From contig JAUICJ010000029.1 of the NCBI GenBank assembly GCA_030427925.1, positions 1 through 33,884 on the forward strand: DNA of 33,884 nucleotides, in the 5' to 3' direction. A program made the translations under genes and the position numbers. A model generated the notes under the pieces. That model was given only the letters and a program-made list of their open reading frames with translations. It did no database searches and was not told where the DNA came from. This document shows, piece after piece, positions 12,670 through 20,310 of the stretch (positions are counted from its first letter, which is position 1; every line of letters begins with the position of its first letter). This DNA comes from Bacteroidia bacterium. Lineage in GTDB: Bacteria; Bacteroidota; Bacteroidia; Flavobacteriales_D; Sanyastnellaceae.

Positions 12670-13506
12670 CACCACCGGCCGGTTTTCTCGGCCGTGACCC
12701 ACCGGGACGTTCCGGACGATGGGCTTCCCGGCGGGGACGTGCTCTCGGAGCATGTCGTCGAGGTCCCGACCGAAGGGGTTGTCGGAGATTTGGCCAAACG
12801 CCCGGGTGTTGTCGCGCAGGTCCAAGAACTCGCCCACAACCAACCCGTGCATGCGGTCCAGGACCCCTGCCAACTTGAAACTGTTCCACATGCGATCCAG
12901 GTGGTACACGTACTCGTCCAGGTCTTCAACTAGCAGCCAAGCACCGTCGACGTTGGGAAACCAAGGGGAGCCGAGGAGGCTGAACAGGACGCTCAAGTTG
13001 CCTCCCACGACCGGTCGCTCATCGGGCAGGCCCAGGCAGCGCCCCGCTGCGAACGGCTCCGGATTCCGCAGCGCGGACCAGAGCAGCTCTGCATCGGCGG
13101 TCCTCGCCTGCGTCCCCGCCACCGCGGCGTGCAGGCTTGCCACACCGTGGTGCCCGGCCCACGCGTGCAGAGCGGAGATGTCGGAAAACCCGATGATCCA
13201 CGTCGGGTCGGCGCGCAACGCCGCTCCATCGAGCAAGGGCAGCAACCGGGCAGACCCGTAACCGCCCCGCATCGCCCAAACCGCTCGAATCGAGGGGTCC
13301 CGGAACGCCGCATTCAGTTCTTCCGCCCGGTGGGCGTCGGTGCCGCCAAATTGGCCGTCGCGCGCAATCAGCCCGGGCGGAACGACCGGCTCGAATCCCG
13401 CGGCGGAGATGGCTTCGGCCGCTTCGGCGGCGGCTTCCGTGGTCGTAAAACGAGCGGGGGCGACCAGCGCAATGCGGTCGCCGGAGGAAAGGGGGCGGGG
13501 CTGCAT
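12661..13506 (-). CDS. ldcA: Muramoyltetrapeptide (LD-) carboxypeptidase
   Basis: The 281-residue S66-family peptidase removes the terminal D-Ala from tetrapeptide muropeptides during peptidoglycan recycling in the cytoplasm. Family landmarks are IALVAPAR near the start, [15 protein letters not shown] (79-93), the nucleophile Ser108 in [11 protein letters not shown], the acidic segment [15 protein letters not shown] (192-206) with the catalytic Glu most likely at 194, and the catalytic His271 in VPVGHGREN. No signal peptide is present, consistent with a cytosolic enzyme. The ATG at 13506 fits the family start; the longer in-frame extension upstream is antisense to metG and is not real. The gene is divergent from metG across 81 nt and is followed by kbl, whose promoter lies in its 3' end. 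Confidence 0.93.
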
Positions 13507-13587
13507 GGACGCAAGATGCAACGCGGAAATGGAATCTCGAACGTGAGGGGGAATGTGCGAAATTTGGCCCTTCAAAAACGACTTGCC

Positions 13588-15630
13588 ATGCCCCGCGTGC
13601 TCATGACCTCCGCCCTGCCGTATGCGAACGGTCCGATTCACATCGGCCACATCGCCGGCGCCTACCTGCCCGCCGACATCCACGCCCGCTGGCGGCGGAG
13701 TGCGGGCCACGACGTGCTGTGGGTCTGCGGCTCCGACGAGCACGGCGCGGCCATCACGCTGCGGGCAAAAAAGGACGGCGTCACCCCCCGCGAAATCGTG
13801 GACACGTACCACGAGGAAATGCAAGCCGCCTTCCGCAGCCTGGACATTTCGTTCGATCACTACAGCCGAACGAGCAGTGCGAAGCACCACCACGTGGCGC
13901 AGGAGTTTTTCCTGAGGCTCCTCGAGAAGGGGGCGTTCGAGGTGAAGACGGAGGCGCAATTTTTCGACCCGGAGGCGCAGCAGTTCCTCGCGGATCGGTA
14001 CATCACGGGGACGTGCCCGAAGTGCGAGGCACCGGGGGCGTACGGGGACCAGTGCGAGAAGTGCGGGAGCGCGTTGTCGCCGACCGACCTCATCGACCCG
14101 AAATCGACGCTCAGTGGCGCCTCGCCCGTGTTGAAGGACACGACGCTGTGGTACCTGCCGATGGACCGGCATGAGGGGTGGCTCCGGGAGTACATCGAGG
14201 AGGGGCGGCTCGACGGTGCGCCGCACCACGCCGCTTCGGCTTGGAAGGCGCACGTCGTCGGGCAGTGCAAGAGCTGGATTGACGGGGGGTTGCAGGCGCG
14301 GGCGATGACGCGGGATTTGGACTGGGGGGTGCCCGTGCCGGTGGAAGGGGCGGACGGCAAGGTGCTCTACGTGTGGCTGGATGCGCCGATCGGGTACATC
14401 ACGAGCACGATGGAGTGGTGCGAGGCGAATGGGCAGGATTGGCGCGCGTGGTGGCAGTCGGCGGAGGCGGATTTGGTCCACTTCATCGGCAAGGACAACA
14501 TCGTGTTCCACTGCCTGATTTTCCCGATTCTGCTGAAGGAACATGGCGGTTACAACCTGCCGGTGAATGTGCCCGCGAACGCCTTCATGAACTTGGAAGG
14601 CCAAAAAATTTCCACCTCGCGCAACTGGGCGGTCTGGGTGAAGGACTTCCTGGAAGAATTCCCGGATCGGAGCGAAGAGCTGCGCTACGTGCTCGCTTCG
14701 ATCATGCCGGAACAAAAGGACAGCGAGTTCACCTGGCACGACTTCCGGGAGCGGGTGAACAACGAATTGGCGGACGTGCTCGGGAACTTCGTGAACCGGG
14801 TGCTCGTGCTCAACCGGAAGTTCCACGAGAGCCGCGTGCCGGAGGCGGGCGCGTTCACGGCCGAGGACGAAGCGGTGCTCTCGGCGTTGAATGCGGCTCC
14901 TGGGCGCATCGGTGATTTCATCGAGCGGCACCGGTACCGGGATGCGCTGCAAGAGGCAATGGGCGTGGCGCGGCTCGGCAACAAGTACATGACCGAAACG
15001 GAGCCTTGGAAGGTGGCGAAAACCGACCCCGCGCGGGCGGCCACCCTCCTGCACGTGTGCACCCAAATCACGGCGAACCTCGGCATCCTCCTGGCGCCCT
15101 TCCTGCCCCGCACGGCTTCGAAGCTCGCAGAAGCCTTCGGCGTGGCGGGCTTGCGTTGGTCGGATGCCCGAGCAGACCTCGTGTCGGCGGGCGCGGCATT
15201 GGGCGACCTGCCCATCCTGTTCGCCAAAGTCGATGCAGAGTGGGCCGAAATGATGCGCGCCCGCCTCGAGCAGCCGGTCGAACGCGCGGTGGAGCCGTTG
15301 AAGGACACCTGCACCTTCGACGACTTCATGAAGCTCGACCTGCGGGTGGGGGAAGTAACGGCGTGCGTGCCCGTTCCGAAAGCGAAGAAGCTGCTCCAGT
15401 TGACCATCCAAACCGGCCTCGACGAGCGCACGGTGGTTTCGGGCATCGCCGAGCACTTCACACCCGAAGAGGTCGTGGGGCGGCGCGTCTGCGTCCTCGT
15501 CAACCTCGCACCGCGGAAGCTGCGCGGAGTAGAAAGCCAAGGCATGGTGCTCATGGCCTCCACAGCCGATGGCGGCTTGCGCTTCGTGACGCCGGAAGAA
15601 GGCACCGCGGCGGGCGACGTCATCGCGTGA
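13588..15630 (+). CDS. metG: Methionyl-tRNA synthetase
   Basis: The 680-residue class I synthetase charges tRNA-Met. The HIGH motif is at 18-21 (GPIHIGHIAGAY). The zinc knuckle CPKCEAPGAYGDQCEKCG begins near residue 143. The KMSKS loop appears as KISTSRN near 338, and the C-terminal EMAP/Trbp111-type tRNA-binding domain occupies about 574-680 (DDFMKLDLRVGEV ... SQGMVLMAS). This is the long, dimerising MetG type. The ATG at 13588 puts the first strand (RVLMTSALPYANG) at the family position; a much longer in-frame upstream extension is antisense to ldcA and is rejected. Upstream, GAAATTTG (13559-13566) resembles the -7 box with G in the first position. Downstream lies the structured repeat region. 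Confidence 0.97.
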   Translation: MPRVLMTSALPYANGPIHIGHIAGAYLPADIHARWRRSAGHDVLWVCGSDEHGAAITLRAKKDGVTPREIVDTYHEEMQAAFRSLDISFDHYSRTSSAKHHHVAQEFFLRLLEKGAFEVKTEAQFFDPEAQQFLADRYITGTCPKCEAPGAYGDQCEKCGSALSPTDLIDPKSTLSGASPVLKDTTLWYLPMDRHEGWLREYIEEGRLDGAPHHAASAWKAHVVGQCKSWIDGGLQARAMTRDLDWGVPVPVEGADGKVLYVWLDAPIGYITSTMEWCEANGQDWRAWWQSAEADLVHFIGKDNIVFHCLIFPILLKEHGGYNLPVNVPANAFMNLEGQKISTSRNWAVWVKDFLEEFPDRSEELRYVLASIMPEQKDSEFTWHDFRERVNNELADVLGNFVNRVLVLNRKFHESRVPEAGAFTAEDEAVLSALNAAPGRIGDFIERHRYRDALQEAMGVARLGNKYMTETEPWKVAKTDPARAATLLHVCTQITANLGILLAPFLPRTASKLAEAFGVAGLRWSDARADLVSAGAALGDLPILFAKVDAEWAEMMRARLEQPVERAVEPLKDTCTFDDFMKLDLRVGEVTACVPVPKAKKLLQLTIQTGLDERTVVSGIAEHFTPEEVVGRRVCVLVNLAPRKLRGVESQGMVLMASTADGGLRFVTPEEGTAAGDVIA

Positions 15631-15660
15631 CCCTCCGATCAGATTGCAACCGAACACATG

Positions 15661-15800
15661 ACGTCCTCGCGTGTGCCTTCGCTGGAGTTGAAATCCCCAG
15701 TTTTTCGAAAAACCGGGGATTTCAATCATAGCGGCGTATAAAAAAAAGGAGCCCCAGCCCCCCCTTTTCGCATTGCCGCAGATGAGAAGTTCATCCTGAG
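15661..15800. repeat. Structured repeat unit A (shorter, relic-bearing copy)
   Basis: This is one of two homologous units between metG and the first receptor gene. It contains, left to right, a shared lead (CCTTCGCTGGAG), an almost uninterrupted hairpin at 15688-15725 (11-bp arms TTGAAATCCCC / GGGGATTTCAA, then one A-C mismatch and a GTTTTTCGAAAAAC core), GCGGCG, an A8 tract, a decayed GC-rich terminator-like stretch (15748-15766) and GATGA-gaagt-TCATC (15781-15795). The last part resembles the 3' end of the receptor gene in unit B. No ORF explains it. Confidence 0.75.
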
Positions 15801-15865
15801 CTGCCAAATCCCTAACGACCTCGTGTTCGCCTTCGCTGGAGTTGAAATCCCCACTTTACCGAAAA

Positions 15866-15887
15866 AAGGCGGCCTTACAGCCGCCTT
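15866..15887. terminator. GC-rich hairpin inside unit B
   Basis: AAGGCGGC (15866-15873) pairs with GCCGCCTT (15880-15887) around a 6-nt loop. An A6 run (15862-15867) precedes it and gives a T run on the minus strand. It could be a second terminator for leftward transcripts, or part of the repeat's structure. Confidence 0.5.
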
Positions 15888-15961
15888 CTCCCGGTCCTAT
15901 CCGCGCACCACTGGCACACCCCCTCTCAAAGTGGGGATTTCAATCACAGCGGCGCAAAAAA

Positions 15962-15985
15962 AAAGGGGACCCGCAGGTCCCCTTT
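15962..15985 (-). terminator. Rho-independent terminator of first TonB-dependent receptor
   Basis: A 10-bp stem (AAAGGGGACC at 15962-15971 with GGTCCCCTTT at 15976-15985) with loop CGCA is followed on the minus strand by a long T run from the A9 tract at 15956-15964. It begins 14 nt after the receptor stop codon. Confidence 0.85.
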
Positions 15986-15999
15986 CGCAATTCCGCAGA

Positions 16000-18765
16000 T
16001 CAGAAGTTGATCTTCAATGTTGCGTTCCACGTGCGGCCGAAACCGAACCACACGAAGTTGCTCTTGTCGATGCCGTTCCACAGCTCCTCTTCAGAAGCGT
16101 CGGCTGAAGCGTGGATGTTCGTGTTCGATTCCGCGATGTACACTGTGTCGAACAGGTTGTTCACGTTCACGCGGAAGCTGGCATTGGTTCCGAGGAAGTC
16201 AAAGCGCGAGGTCAAACCCAAGTCCACCAAAGCGTACGAAGGCAATTGCAGCGCTCCCGCATTGTCCGGGTTCAAGAAGTCCCCGTTGATGGAGTAGTCC
16301 GCGTACAAACCATCCACGTAACGCGCCGTCAAATCCGCATTGAACGTGCGGTTGATGCGGTAGTCCACGCCCAAGAAACCGGTCAACTGAGCCGCATCGC
16401 CCACTTTCGCACCTTCCGTGTAAAGGGTGGCTGTACCCAGTTCGTTTTGGTTCTCATCAAAAATGGTGGCGTCGAAGTTCTTCGTGTACGTCCAATCGCC
16501 AAGCGACAACATACCCGTCACCTTCAATCCATTCACCGGGTAGTAGTTCGCCTCCACCTCGATGCCGTTGTGCTGGACATCGACGTCGCGGAACTGGGCA
16601 ATGCCCTCCTGCATGGTCGAATCGTTCACCACCACATCCACCGACTGGGTCACGAAGCGGTTGCCCCAGGTCGTGGCGTACGCGTTGACGTTGACCGTCA
16701 AGTTCTCACTGCGGTAACCGTAACCGATTTCAAAGGACGTGATTTGCTCGTTCTGCAGGTCGTCGTTCACGAAGTTCGCGTAGTTCGGGAACACCGCATC
16801 GAAGTTTGGCTGACGGGAAATGACGCCAGCGTTGAAGAACACGTTCGACGATTCGCTCATGTTGTAGTTCGCACCGCCTTTCACGTAGCCGCCGTTGATG
16901 TTCGCGACATCCGAAATCGGCAAGTTGGGCTGATCGAAGTAATCCTCACGCTGGTAAGACTGGATCGAGAAACCGGCTTGTACCACCGCAGTCAGGTCGT
17001 CTTGGTTGTTGTACTCAACGAGTCCGTTGAAACCTGCCCACTTCACCAAACCGATGTTGTAGTAATCCATCTTCGGACCGTTGAGGCCCGTGTTGCGGAA
17101 AGGATCGGCGTCGATGGTCGTGTTGATGACTTGGCCCATGCTGTTTTGGTTCCCCGTTGAGTAGTAGCCGTCGAGGCCCATGAGGTTGTTCAACACGCGG
17201 TAGTGGTAGCCCTTGTAGTTCCGGAGGTCCAAACCAACCGACGCCCGCAAGTTGTCCTTGTTGTATTCCAAATTCGAGATCACGCCGACCCAGTCGTGCG
17301 AGTTCATCGAAGCGCGGCGCACCTCAACAGCGCGGTTCACGTCCTCCCCGTTGTAGCCGTTCGAACCGATGAGTTGGTTGTAGAACGGGCTCGACGTCAA
17401 CGAATCGCTCGTGCCGTAGCCGGTGGTCGTGGCGATGTTCGCGGCGACCACCGCATCGAAGTCGATGAAGCCGTCCGCATCGCGCGAACCGAGGCTGTCC
17501 TCGAGGTAGTGCTGGGTCAAGTCCGCATTGTACGGGTGGTTGTTGATGTCGCCGTTGCGGAAGTACGCACCGCGTGGGCCCGTTCCACCACCGCGACCTG
17601 CTGAACCGTAAATCGACGTGTTCAACGTCAAGTTCTCCGTAATCGTCCAATCCCAGTTGAACGTCGCGAGCGGCTTGTTGTAGAAGTTGCGGCGCATGTT
17701 GAACTCCTGGCGCTCGTTGTCGATGGTCATGAAACCCGCGTCGGTGTTCCAACGGCGGTCGATGCCTTCTTCACCGAAATTCTCGTAGTCGCGGATGGAC
17801 ACCCACGCATCGCGCTGGTGGTGCCATTGGCCGGCGCCCAAGAACGACAAATTCAACGCGTGCTTCGAGCCGTCGGGCTGGTAGCCGATGGCACCGAAGT
17901 AGGTGGTTCCTGCACCGGCCGTGCCGTAGACGTAGCCGTCGCCTGACCACTGGCTCAAGAGGAACGAAGAGGCCCAGCCGTTTTCGTTTTTGCCTGAGCT
18001 GTAGCTCACCGAGGTCTTCATGAAGCCATCGTTACCGATGGTCTCGGCAATCGAACCGCCGCGCTCCATTTGGGCCGCCTTCGTGAAGATGGAGACCGTA
18101 CCGCCCACTGAAGGAACGGCGAGGCGAGAAGCTCCGAGGCCGCGCTGGATTTGGATGCCGGAAGCCACGTCCGTCAAACCCTGCCAGTTCGACCAGTACA
18201 CCCAACCGTTCTCCATGTCATTGACCGGCTGGCCGTTGATGAGGAACGAGGTGTTGCGCTGGTCGAAACCACGCAACGAAATGCGGGAGTCACCGTAGCC
18301 ACCGCCCTGCTTCGTGGCGTAAACACCCGGCGTGCGGTTCATGATTTCCGGGAACTCTTGGTTACCGACTTTCAACGCAATTTCAGCGGGAGAAATCGTT
18401 GAAACCGCCACCGGAGTTTCGCGCTCCTTCGCCACGTCCACCACGTTCGTGATGATGGTCGCTGCGGCCAAACCGAGTGCCGTCGGCTCCAATGAAATCA
18501 CCCCCATGTCCGCCTTCGCAGCGAGCAGGGCCGTTTCGTATCCGATGAAGGAAACGGTGATGTTGCCCGTGGGTTGGGCGTTCAACGAGAACGTACCATC
18601 TGCTGCGGCAGCAACGCCTGAGGTGGCACCTTCGACCATGACGGTAGCACCGGGAAGTGCACCTCCAGTAGAGGCATCCGTCACCTTACCAACAATCTGC
18701 GCCATCGACACGGAGGTCAACGCACAGAAGAGGCCCAGGAGGGCGAATCGAAACATTTGAGACAT
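16000..18765 (-). CDS. TonB-dependent outer-membrane receptor, paralog 1
   Basis: The 921-residue outer-membrane receptor has a signal peptide (residues 1-22, ending SVSMA), a carboxypeptidase-regulatory-like domain at about 24-100 (GKVTDASTGGALPGATVMVEG) and a plug domain at about 115-230. The plug shows TPVAVSTISPAEI, TPGVYATKQGGGYGDSRISL and INGQPVNDMENGWVYWSNW. A 22-strand-type beta barrel ends in TWNATLKINF, with the terminal Phe expected for BAM insertion. No SusD partner is adjacent, so it is not a SusCD pair; the substrate is unknown. The ATG at 18765 is chosen because it starts the signal peptide; 30 in-frame codons upstream have no protein character. It is paralogous to the receptor at 20311-23160. 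A strong terminator follows, embedded in the structured repeat. Confidence 0.92.
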   Translation of the reverse strand: MSQMFRFALLGLFCALTSVSMAQIVGKVTDASTGGALPGATVMVEGATSGVAAAADGTFSLNAQPTGNITVSFIGYETALLAAKADMGVISLEPTALGLAAATIITNVVDVAKERETPVAVSTISPAEIALKVGNQEFPEIMNRTPGVYATKQGGGYGDSRISLRGFDQRNTSFLINGQPVNDMENGWVYWSNWQGLTDVASGIQIQRGLGASRLAVPSVGGTVSIFTKAAQMERGGSIAETIGNDGFMKTSVSYSSGKNENGWASSFLLSQWSGDGYVYGTAGAGTTYFGAIGYQPDGSKHALNLSFLGAGQWHHQRDAWVSIRDYENFGEEGIDRRWNTDAGFMTIDNERQEFNMRRNFYNKPLATFNWDWTITENLTLNTSIYGSAGRGGGTGPRGAYFRNGDINNHPYNADLTQHYLEDSLGSRDADGFIDFDAVVAANIATTTGYGTSDSLTSSPFYNQLIGSNGYNGEDVNRAVEVRRASMNSHDWVGVISNLEYNKDNLRASVGLDLRNYKGYHYRVLNNLMGLDGYYSTGNQNSMGQVINTTIDADPFRNTGLNGPKMDYYNIGLVKWAGFNGLVEYNNQDDLTAVVQAGFSIQSYQREDYFDQPNLPISDVANINGGYVKGGANYNMSESSNVFFNAGVISRQPNFDAVFPNYANFVNDDLQNEQITSFEIGYGYRSENLTVNVNAYATTWGNRFVTQSVDVVVNDSTMQEGIAQFRDVDVQHNGIEVEANYYPVNGLKVTGMLSLGDWTYTKNFDATIFDENQNELGTATLYTEGAKVGDAAQLTGFLGVDYRINRTFNADLTARYVDGLYADYSINGDFLNPDNAGALQLPSYALVDLGLTSRFDFLGTNASFRVNVNNLFDTVYIAESNTNIHASADASEEELWNGIDKSNFVWFGFGRTWNATLKINF

Positions 18766-19022
18766 GTTCAACGGTGTTGAGGGGTTAGTTTTCGGCTGCG
18801 AAATTCCCTTTTTTCCTTTCAAATCGGACGGACCCAAGTCACGCAGCCCCACCAAAGGAAGAAGTTTAAGTTTGCGAAAATTGGCAAAACCCGCGAATCC
18901 ACAACCGATTCAAACGTGACCACATGCCTTTGTCCAGCCCAACCGCCACGTAAAATTTCACATTCCCTTAACATTCAGGGGAGCGAACGAATGGGTTAGT
19001 TTTGGGACTCAATCGGCTCGAA
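18766..19022. promoter_or_regulatory. Divergent intergenic region, receptor 1 / response regulator
   Basis: The 257-nt gap is comparatively AT-rich and holds the leaders of both genes. On the plus strand TAGTTTTG (18997-19004) matches the -7 consensus 18 nt before the response-regulator ATG, but no TTG is seen at the right distance. I find no convincing box for the leftward receptor gene and no small gene. Confidence 0.45.
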
Positions 19023-19565
19023 ATGACCTTGCAAGATTTCGTGGTGTTGTACGTCGACGATGAACCGGCGAACCTGTTTGCTTTCCGGGCGGCGTTCCGG
19101 AAGGAGGTGACGGTGTTGACGGCTGCGTCGATGAACGAAGGGCTGATGGTGTTGGCAGATCAGCCCGTGGACTTGCTCATCACCGACCAAATCATGCCCG
19201 AGGGCACCGGCCTCGAATTCCTCCAGCGCACCTTGCAGGACTTCCCTGATTTGCAGCGCATTTTGATCACGGCTTATGGGCATTTGGATTTGGTTCGCCA
19301 AGCGCTCAATGATGGGAAAATCCACTGTTACCTCGAAAAACCGTGGGACGAAGCGCAGCTGCTCGGCATCATCCGCCAAGCGTTCACCGAAATCACGGAC
19401 CGGGACCACCGCCGGGATCAAATCAACGCGCTCGCACGGCAGTTGTTCCAAAGCCGGCAACGCGTGGCGAGTTTGCTCGAACACCTGCACCAAGTGGGCG
19501 ACCTCGAAGGCTCGGTCATCGCGCAATCCATCCTCCAATTGATGGATCGCTCCGAAAAAGGCTAG
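19023..19565 (+). CDS. Response regulator with receiver domain and helical tail
   Basis: The 180-residue protein has a receiver domain (about 6-122): acidic pair Asp12/Asp13 in VDDEP, phospho-acceptor Asp55 in LLITDQIMP, switch Thr83 in ITAYG and Lys106 in EKPW. The remaining about 55 residues (DQINALARQLFQSRQRVASLLEHL) look like an amphipathic helix or coiled coil, with no DNA-binding or enzymatic output domain. The EKPW signature resembles receivers of HD-GYP-type regulators. The ATG at 19023 starts the first strand; a TTG 21 nt upstream would place the start inside the -7 box. No histidine kinase is adjacent, so it is probably an orphan acting through protein contacts. tRNA-Thr follows. 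Confidence 0.9.
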   Translation: MTLQDFVVLYVDDEPANLFAFRAAFRKEVTVLTAASMNEGLMVLADQPVDLLITDQIMPEGTGLEFLQRTLQDFPDLQRILITAYGHLDLVRQALNDGKIHCYLEKPWDEAQLLGIIRQAFTEITDRDHRRDQINALARQLFQSRQRVASLLEHLHQVGDLEGSVIAQSILQLMDRSEKG

Positions 19566-19592
19566 CGGATTCGAAATTTTTTCAGGCCGAAG

Positions 19593-19626
19593 TTGAAACC
19601 CTTGGGTGAAATCTTGCGTATCTTTG
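19593..19626 (+). promoter_or_regulatory. tRNA-Thr promoter
   Basis: TTG (19593-19595) and TATCTTTG (19619-19626) are separated by 23 nt. The -7 box is a perfect match to TAnnTTTG and ends 13 nt before the first base of the tRNA. Confidence 0.7.
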
Positions 19627-19639
19627 CCGTCGCGTTTTT

Positions 19640-19715
<76 letters not shown>

Positions 19716-19726
19716 CGAAATGAAAA

Positions 19727-19753
19727 GGCCGCCCCATCGAGGGCGGCCTTTTT
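19727..19753. terminator. Bidirectional terminator between tRNA-Thr and lipoprotein gene
   Basis: An 8-bp perfect stem (GGCCGCCC at 19727-19734, GGGCGGCC at 19741-19748), loop CATCGA, T5 after it on the plus strand and four A's before it (a T run on the minus strand). It can end both the tRNA and the leftward lipoprotein transcript. Confidence 0.9.
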
Positions 19754-19775
19754 CGTTGTTTGATTTCATTGCGCT

Positions 19776-20222
19776 TTAAAGCGTCAATTCCACGGCCAAG
19801 CACGTGTTCGCTTCAAAGTTCAAGACACCCGACCACCACGTATCGCCCCAGTCGTCCACGACCTCATACGTTGCTGCCAATGCGGTCGCCTTCCCCATGT
19901 CCTTGGTGATGGTGATGGAAGCATTGGCTCCACAATCGGGGGCACTGGTCCAGTATTGGTTGGTTGCGGTAGAACCGACGATTTGGCCGTCCACATAAAA
20001 GTTGAGGCTTGCGCTCTGCCAATCTTGCAATTCCGCGCTAGCGGCTTGGCCATACCACAATACGATTTCACCTTCGTATTCGCAGGATCCATCAAAATTG
20101 TCCGCAGCAGGATCGTAATTCACCGCGTCCGCATCCGTGCACCCATCGACCTGACAACCCGCGAAAGACAGGGCAGAAACCACCAACGCCACCCCCCAAA
20201 AAGCCGTGTTAAACTTGCTCAT
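19776..20222 (-). CDS. Small secreted lipoprotein with CTD...NYDP motif
   Basis: The 148-residue protein has a signal peptide and a lipobox-like SFAGC, giving a probable lipidated Cys23. Immediately after comes GCTDADAVNYDPAADNFDGSCEYEG (from residue 27), the Cys-bounded acidic repeat common in secreted Bacteroidetes proteins and suggestive of calcium binding. The remaining about 95 residues form a beta-rich domain (EIVLWYGQAAS, SLNFYVDGQIVGS, SITITKDMGKA, WWSGVLNFEA) with a possible disulphide between the two remaining cysteines. I do not recognise a named family for it. It follows the second TonB-dependent receptor after 88 nt on the same strand and may be co-transcribed with it, as a surface accessory protein; that role is inference. 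Confidence 0.8.
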   Translation of the reverse strand: MSKFNTAFWGVALVVSALSFAGCQVDGCTDADAVNYDPAADNFDGSCEYEGEIVLWYGQAASAELQDWQSASLNFYVDGQIVGSTATNQYWTSAPDCGANASITITKDMGKATALAATYEVVDDWGDTWWSGVLNFEANTCLAVELTL

Positions 20223-20310
20223 TTTGTTTTGAATTTTAAACGAAGAGCAAGATATGTCCCTGCCCGCATGCAGGATGTTAAATTCAAAATAAACCCTTCA
20301 AATTAACACG

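Follow-up and report, generated by a model that had tools for sequence, protein, structure and literature searches.

The interval between metG and a TonB-dependent receptor gene, in a 33,884-nucleotide stretch of a Bacteroidia bacterium of the Sanyastnellaceae (assembly GCA_030427925.1, contig JAUICJ010000029.1, positions 1 to 33,884; hereafter the window), holds two homologous units, A (15661-15795) and B (15815-16012). These units probably belong to a lineage-specific family of extragenic palindromes that is dispersed over 16 clusters, of which they form one. The ends of the palindromes would be recognised by a protein, and the family resembles REPINs, the hairpin-forming doublets of repetitive extragenic palindromic (REP) sequences. 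The sequence of the repeat is conserved and not its base pairing, and the element looks like a REP-like family rather than a new structured RNA. The initial annotation of the window had proposed three possibilities: a structured RNA, a family of palindromes similar to REPs or to miniature inverted-repeat transposable elements (MITEs), or a complex terminator.

A search of the whole 2.95-Mb genome bears out the second proposal. A 37-nt half-site, CGCT-N4-TTGAAATCCCC-A(C/A)TTT, is present in 47 copies distributed in 16 intergenic clusters. The sequence between metG and the TonB gene is as initially described, but the element is not limited to this interval, since it recurs at 15 further loci of the genome. 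Comparison of the 354-base region with its own genome gives 78 matches, many of them to arms located on other contigs. The exact 12-mer TTGAAATCCCCA occurs 29 times, and tolerating at most one mismatch yields 67 matches versus a single one for the reversed control. In the same way, the 11-mer corresponding to the TTGAAATCCCC core, with at most one mismatch, has five matches in the window (four exact) whereas 0.84 would be expected.

Each half-site is built of an A/T-rich (A-rich) tract, CGCT, four variable bases, TTGAAATCCCC and then ACTTT or AAATT. In a position table of 41 half-sites, the bases of CGCT are kept 39 to 41 times each and both A at +11 and T at +14 are found 40 times, whereas the 4-nt spacer that follows CGCT is less conserved. 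The tract, about 14-20 nt outside the core, has A in 20 to 30 of these half-sites at four positions, and the repeat has no sharp border on its outer side. As the 41 half-sites were chosen by their 11-mer core, the constancy of this core in the table is no evidence, but CGCT, +11 and +14 lie outside the choice. A model of the sequence alone, 37 positions long (R1), finds 47 half-sites scoring at least 16 bits, all of them intergenic, the next two matches reaching 13.6 and 9.5 bits. This model was built from the same 47 half-sites, whose recovery is thus by construction; it adds that no further site is that strong among the 150 of 1626 candidates scored.

The half-sites are mostly paired: 36 of the 47 make up 18 inverted pairs, i.e., hairpins comparable to REPIN doublets, with loops of about 0-110 nt. 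The loops of different loci are unrelated (117 pairs of 16 loops of at least 14 nt, mean score 12.8 versus 12.6 after shuffling, best score 23 versus a shuffled maximum of 28). Four clusters include two compared hairpins each, whose loops are nearly identical in C48:21k, similar in C24:101k and unrelated in C48:39k, and local tandem duplication is found in two clusters. The C7 cluster (L031:2080-2480) comprises four half-sites, two left and two right, and in addition a degenerate arm, possibly arranged as nested hairpins, and its right arms carry a CTAATCCCC variant.

It had been suggested that compensatory changes between units A and B indicate preservation of structure over sequence. A structured RNA or a regulatory hairpin with conserved base pairing would account for the pairing of 36 half-sites in the 18 hairpins compared and for the strong folds obtained on both strands. 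The predicted RNA fold of positions 15631-15999 is indeed far below 100 shuffles on either strand (z of -7.1 and -7.8), and seven of the ten stretches folded as RNA are strong. However, three others fold weakly, shuffles being as good in 56 of 200 cases for L038, 8 of 200 for L037:1676-1763 and 5 of 200 for L041. Furthermore, for each of the 18 hairpins, the pairing of the left arm with the right arm of the same hairpin was compared with its pairing with those of the others (20000 permutations). Over 36 positions, pairing amounts to 0.715 with the own partner and 0.722 with a random one (P 0.77). This absence of advantage concerns every part of the arms (own versus random): outer part, 0.486 versus 0.482; CGCT, 1.000 versus 1.000; spacer, 0.472 versus 0.517; core, 0.919 versus 0.925; inner part, 0.778 versus 0.797. 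The outcome is the same with one hairpin per cluster (14 hairpins). The test covers the 18 hairpins formed by 36 half-sites. Half-sites without a partner were excluded, as were three hairpins, in C24:80k, C49 and C7, of which one arm is strongly degenerate; among the hairpins retained, the C7 pairing is ambiguous and both arms of the C50 hairpin overlap at its tip.

Changes without compensation are found in copies of the C48, C36, C3, C24, C49 and C11 clusters. In the 18 hairpins, TTGTAATC (four hairpins) and CCCCAAAT (five, the overlapping C50 pair excluded) are never matched in the partner arm. The absence of any own-partner advantage indicates that the arms pair because both match one consensus and not through joint change. 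In the same way, Rfam gives no match at gathering level in the window except for a tRNA located elsewhere, and only three weak, chance-level matches in the region (E 0.3-0.5) when an E-value threshold is used. Conserved base pairing is therefore a highly improbable explanation of the family and is largely refuted.

The swap in the large hairpin, on which the initial annotation had relied, holds for the pair itself, G15700-C15713 in unit A corresponding to C15854-G15931 in unit B. This is one compensated C-G to G-C change between the units, in favour of a structured RNA, but the adjoining A15699/C15714 in unit A is a mismatch. Moreover, the C-to-G change at +12 that is compensated in unit A occurs without compensation in C48:21k, in the right arm of each of the two hairpins; these hairpins are duplicates of each other. 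It should be emphasized that two copies can give a misleading appearance of compensation: once 18 hairpins from the same genome are compared, the pairing signal is gone while the conservation of the sequence stays.

The homology of the two units and their long inverted arms were confirmed. The local alignment of A and B scores 117, the best of 200 shuffles of B not exceeding 27, and both units have the exact arms TTGAAATCCCC/GGGGATTTCAA. In unit A, the left half-site lies at 15668-15704 on the plus strand (core TTGAAATCCCC at 15688-15698) and the right one at 15709-15745 on the minus strand (core at 15715-15725). In unit B, they lie at 15822-15858 (plus strand, core at 15842-15852) and 15927-15963 (minus strand, core at 15933-15943), and 16 bp pair without interruption (15842-15857/15928-15943). 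The loop of unit B includes a GC-rich hairpin of its own (AAGGCGGC/GCCGCCTT, 15866-15887). As far as the sequence tells, the two units are a tandem duplication with a long inverted repeat in each.

The final 5-bp stem, the other paired swap reported initially, turns out to be coding sequence. In unit B, GATCA-GAAGT-TGATC overlaps the last codons and the stop (KINF-stop) of the TonB-dependent receptor open reading frame (ORF), which lies on the minus strand at 16000-18855 and ends in ...LKINF. The same stretch of unit A (GATGA/TCATC) is a stub left by the duplication. According to the sequence and the A/B alignment, positions 15746-15795 of unit A would comprise this stub of the TonB gene 3' end and a decayed duplicate of the terminator of this gene. 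The most plausible reading of the pair is thus that the TonB 3' end, its terminator and the repeat were duplicated in tandem.

The proposal of a complex terminator applies only to a neighbouring part. In the right part of unit B, directly beside the repeat and before the last codons of the TonB receptor gene, a site of this gene that resembles an intrinsic terminator was found on the minus strand at 15961-15986, with an 11-bp stem and a T run. The terminator scan calls one site versus 0.8 in shuffles, a count that is no proof by itself, and the argument for this site comes from its stem and T run. More generally, the repeats could act as intrinsic terminators in both directions, each long hairpin being preceded by an A tract and followed by a T tract so as to serve both convergent genes. 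The location after stop codons, the A-rich tract about 14-20 nt outside the core and the proximity of the TonB terminator would all fit. However, the half-sites share their sequence across loci, which terminators do not need, and the tract lies about 15 nt past the core stem. The scan did not call the repeats, but with loops limited to 3-8 nt it could not judge most of them. Altogether, we regard such a function as very unlikely.

The clusters are preferentially located by the 3' ends of genes. Fifteen of the 16 border at least one gene 3' end, seven being in convergent, eight in co-directional and one in divergent intervals, whereas the other gaps of at least 100 bp in the fetched regions include 6 convergent, 19 co-directional and 23 divergent ones (Fisher P of 0.002). 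Genes were called with our own codon-score script, which gave 8/6/1 (P of 0.003), missing the C11 cluster because of its mismatched cores and taking C48:39.6k as convergent; in the corrected counts, C11 was added and C48:39.6k is co-directional owing to an adjoining DUF4143 gene. For 22 gene ends, the nearest half-site core lies 10-115 nt from the stop codon (median 30.5). The sole divergent, i.e., promoter-side, cluster (L036:1617-1747, C24:80.6 kb) holds a perfect short palindrome, CCCCAAATTTGGGG.

Comparable families were searched for in other genomes. The 113 other genomes searched in the taxonomic family, among them the sole other member of the genus (87% complete), showed none, with 59 candidates scored per genome. 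At E up to 0.1, 51 of these 113 genomes have one to three weak matches, the best reaching 22.1 bits (E 2.8e-4), compared with 47 in the own genome; a single match, of 16.4 bits, is found in the genus mate. Likewise, samples of the order (398 other genomes) and of the class (394) gave none at E 1e-4 with 17 candidates scored per genome, where the own genome lists 17 of its 47. The two samples share genomes with one another and with the family, and so few candidates per genome mean that families present elsewhere may have been missed. In the relatives L077-L080 and L082, metG is followed by an orthologue of the second TonB gene of the window (68-69% identity). By eye, four of these relatives have a tRNA between the two genes, and none shows a copy of the repeat downstream of metG. 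Distant blastn searches of phage and plasmid collections found no match at E 1e-5, and viral contigs have no exact match to the half-site pattern or to the palindromic pattern with a loop of 2-32 nt.

This distribution bears on another explanation, in which the half-site pairs would be host binding sites of a sequence-specific DNA-binding protein (a regulator, a nucleoid protein or a terminator protein) without any mobility. Two conserved blocks at a fixed distance around a freer 4-nt spacer, unrelated loops, the lack of covariation and the placement at 3' ends are all consistent with it. However, relatives usually share host regulatory sites, and no comparable family was seen in the 113 genomes, genus mate included. 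Moreover, the neighbouring genes are functionally mixed (ribosomal protein L20, a GH20 enzyme, aminotransferases, a sulfate permease and a mechanosensitive channel among the 30 ORFs scanned), and two clusters underwent local tandem duplication. Restriction to one genome among those searched suggests a recent spread and thus favours a REPIN-like population; host binding sites appear unlikely, although less so than the other alternatives considered.

In this REPIN-like population, conserved blocks around a freer spacer, together with unrelated loops and the absence of covariation, suggest that the sequence of the ends is recognised by a protein. The half-site ends would be read by a trans-acting protein, a transposase or a recombinase that is absent or unrecognised, which would have spread them. 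The repeats would be tolerated after stop codons since promoters are spared there, and the tandem copies between metG and the TonB gene would have arisen from a local duplication of the TonB 3' end, the terminator and the repeat. Read-through transcripts would carry strong stem-loops that may affect 3' ends, yet these would not be what keeps the sequence conserved.

Several observations weigh against a recently mobile REPIN-like family. PF01797, the domain of Y1 transposases and of REP-associated tyrosine transposases (RAYTs), has no match in this 99.5% complete genome, while the same search found it in 5 of 14 control genomes. PF01609 (DDE_Tnp_1) also has no match in the genome, these being the transposase families searched genome-wide. 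Recent copying of whole doublets predicts loops that are alike between loci, whereas they are unrelated, and a target-site duplication is not established. The double change at +12 in unit A, the one such change in its hairpin, fits a structural constraint. A 15-mer searched with at most one mismatch has 47 matches in 34 of the 113 genomes of the taxonomic family (at most four in each) versus 12 for the reversed control, and faint relatives of the repeat are thus possible. The copy number is also low, with 47 half-sites, whereas REPs usually exceed 100 per genome, as described in PMC2817692.

Other candidate enzymes were considered. The scan of the 30 neighbouring ORFs gave a single marginal HTH_Tnp_1 match (24.8 bits, cut-off of 24.1), lying beneath GerE and HTH_23 matches. 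It belongs to a protein with two helix-turn-helix domains encoded beside the C24:101-kb cluster, which was set aside as being probably an ordinary TPR/LuxR-type regulator. TIGR02249 (integron integrase) matches five stretches in three ORFs, none above the cut-off, and behaves likewise in all 14 control genomes, none of which passes and which thus include no positive control. The genome has three tyrosine-recombinase-like ORFs, as found in all 14 controls.

A bolder version of mobility may be envisaged, namely an orphan mobile-repeat system of a new type. It would consist of paired sites of two blocks, CGCT-N4-TTGAAATCCCCA, whose left and right ends can be told apart and whose loop is free. A recombinase reading the ends only, possibly as folded single-stranded DNA, would have spread it through one lineage, with a preference for positions just after stop codons. 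Left and right ends do differ in sequence beyond expectation (polarity of 256 versus a null maximum of 218 in 60 trials, the observed value being somewhat favoured by 200 restarts against 15 for the null; per-contig swap P of 0.04), a difference that would be consistent with an element having both its ends defined. We nevertheless consider this reading distinctly unlikely. A link of the polarity with the replication strand was discarded, since the local GC skew differs in sign among contigs of the same polarity.

The surroundings of the two units show some further features. The metG ORF (methionyl-tRNA synthetase, 13129-15630, plus strand) is convergent with the TonB gene. In this ORF, about 155 residues precede the synthetase domain (window 13129-13600), the Pfam match beginning at residue 157; a weakly similar stretch is encoded upstream of the metG match in L077 and L079, and the N-terminal extension may be real. 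Compared with L077-L080 and L082, the window has two extra genes at 15631-20310, where metG is separated from the tRNA-Thr/second TonB gene by the TonB receptor gene and, by eye, by an ORF resembling a response regulator (19002-19565). These two genes result either from a lineage-specific insertion or from a loss in the relatives.

Among the papers listed in the literature search, which was not made by the repeat sequence, no title or beginning of an abstract described this repeat. Several known systems nevertheless offer points of comparison. MITEs are delimited by terminal inverted repeats around a short interior without any recognised gene. The same is true for this family, but its interiors are not common to the different loci, and no parent element with these ends was found, all 47 half-sites lying in short intergenic clusters, in a search that covered PF01609 in the genome and the 30 neighbouring ORFs. 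The attC sites of integrons combine inverted boxes (RYYYAAC/GTTRRRY), a poorly paired spacer and a loop of variable length, an arrangement that the family also has. However, its consensus includes no GTTRRRY or RYYYAAC boxes, by eye, and its neighbours are ordinary chromosomal genes, while the integron-integrase matches are all below the cut-off, as they are in the control genomes.

The closest resemblance is to REPINs, described in PMC3116915 as inverted REP doublets with a spacer, hairpin-forming and extragenic, occurring with singlets and in ordered tandem clusters that include flanking sequences. Like them, the family comprises singlets, tandem clusters with flanks and extragenic pairs in which a short conserved sequence is repeated in inverted orientation across a spacer. 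It differs from them by its low copy number, by loops that are unrelated between loci, by a genome without Y1/RAYT domain match and by a half-site that is no clear palindrome, by eye. According to PMC3733652, REPs bearing GTAG or CGTC tags lie for the most part between ORFs that are convergent or unidirectional, and those of the CGTC class were reported from Bacteroidetes among other phyla, apparently without a dedicated transposase. The present family likewise sits mostly between such ORFs, but its consensus has no GTAG or CGTC end tag, the outer conserved block being CGCT, and its visible unit is a doublet instead of a single palindrome of 20-40 bp. Furthermore, PMC6006769 describes TnpA subclasses that are frequent in Bacteroidetes, one of them with atypical flanking structures; no domain of the subclasses described there was found in this genome. 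The family is thus REPIN-like in its anatomy and differs in two defining features, the tag and the RAYT, and we do not file it as a REPIN. Such a small REPIN-like population without a recognised RAYT, in a genome that its nearest named metG relatives place in Flavobacteriales or their kin, is useful for asking what spreads and holds repeats of this kind when the known enzyme is lacking.

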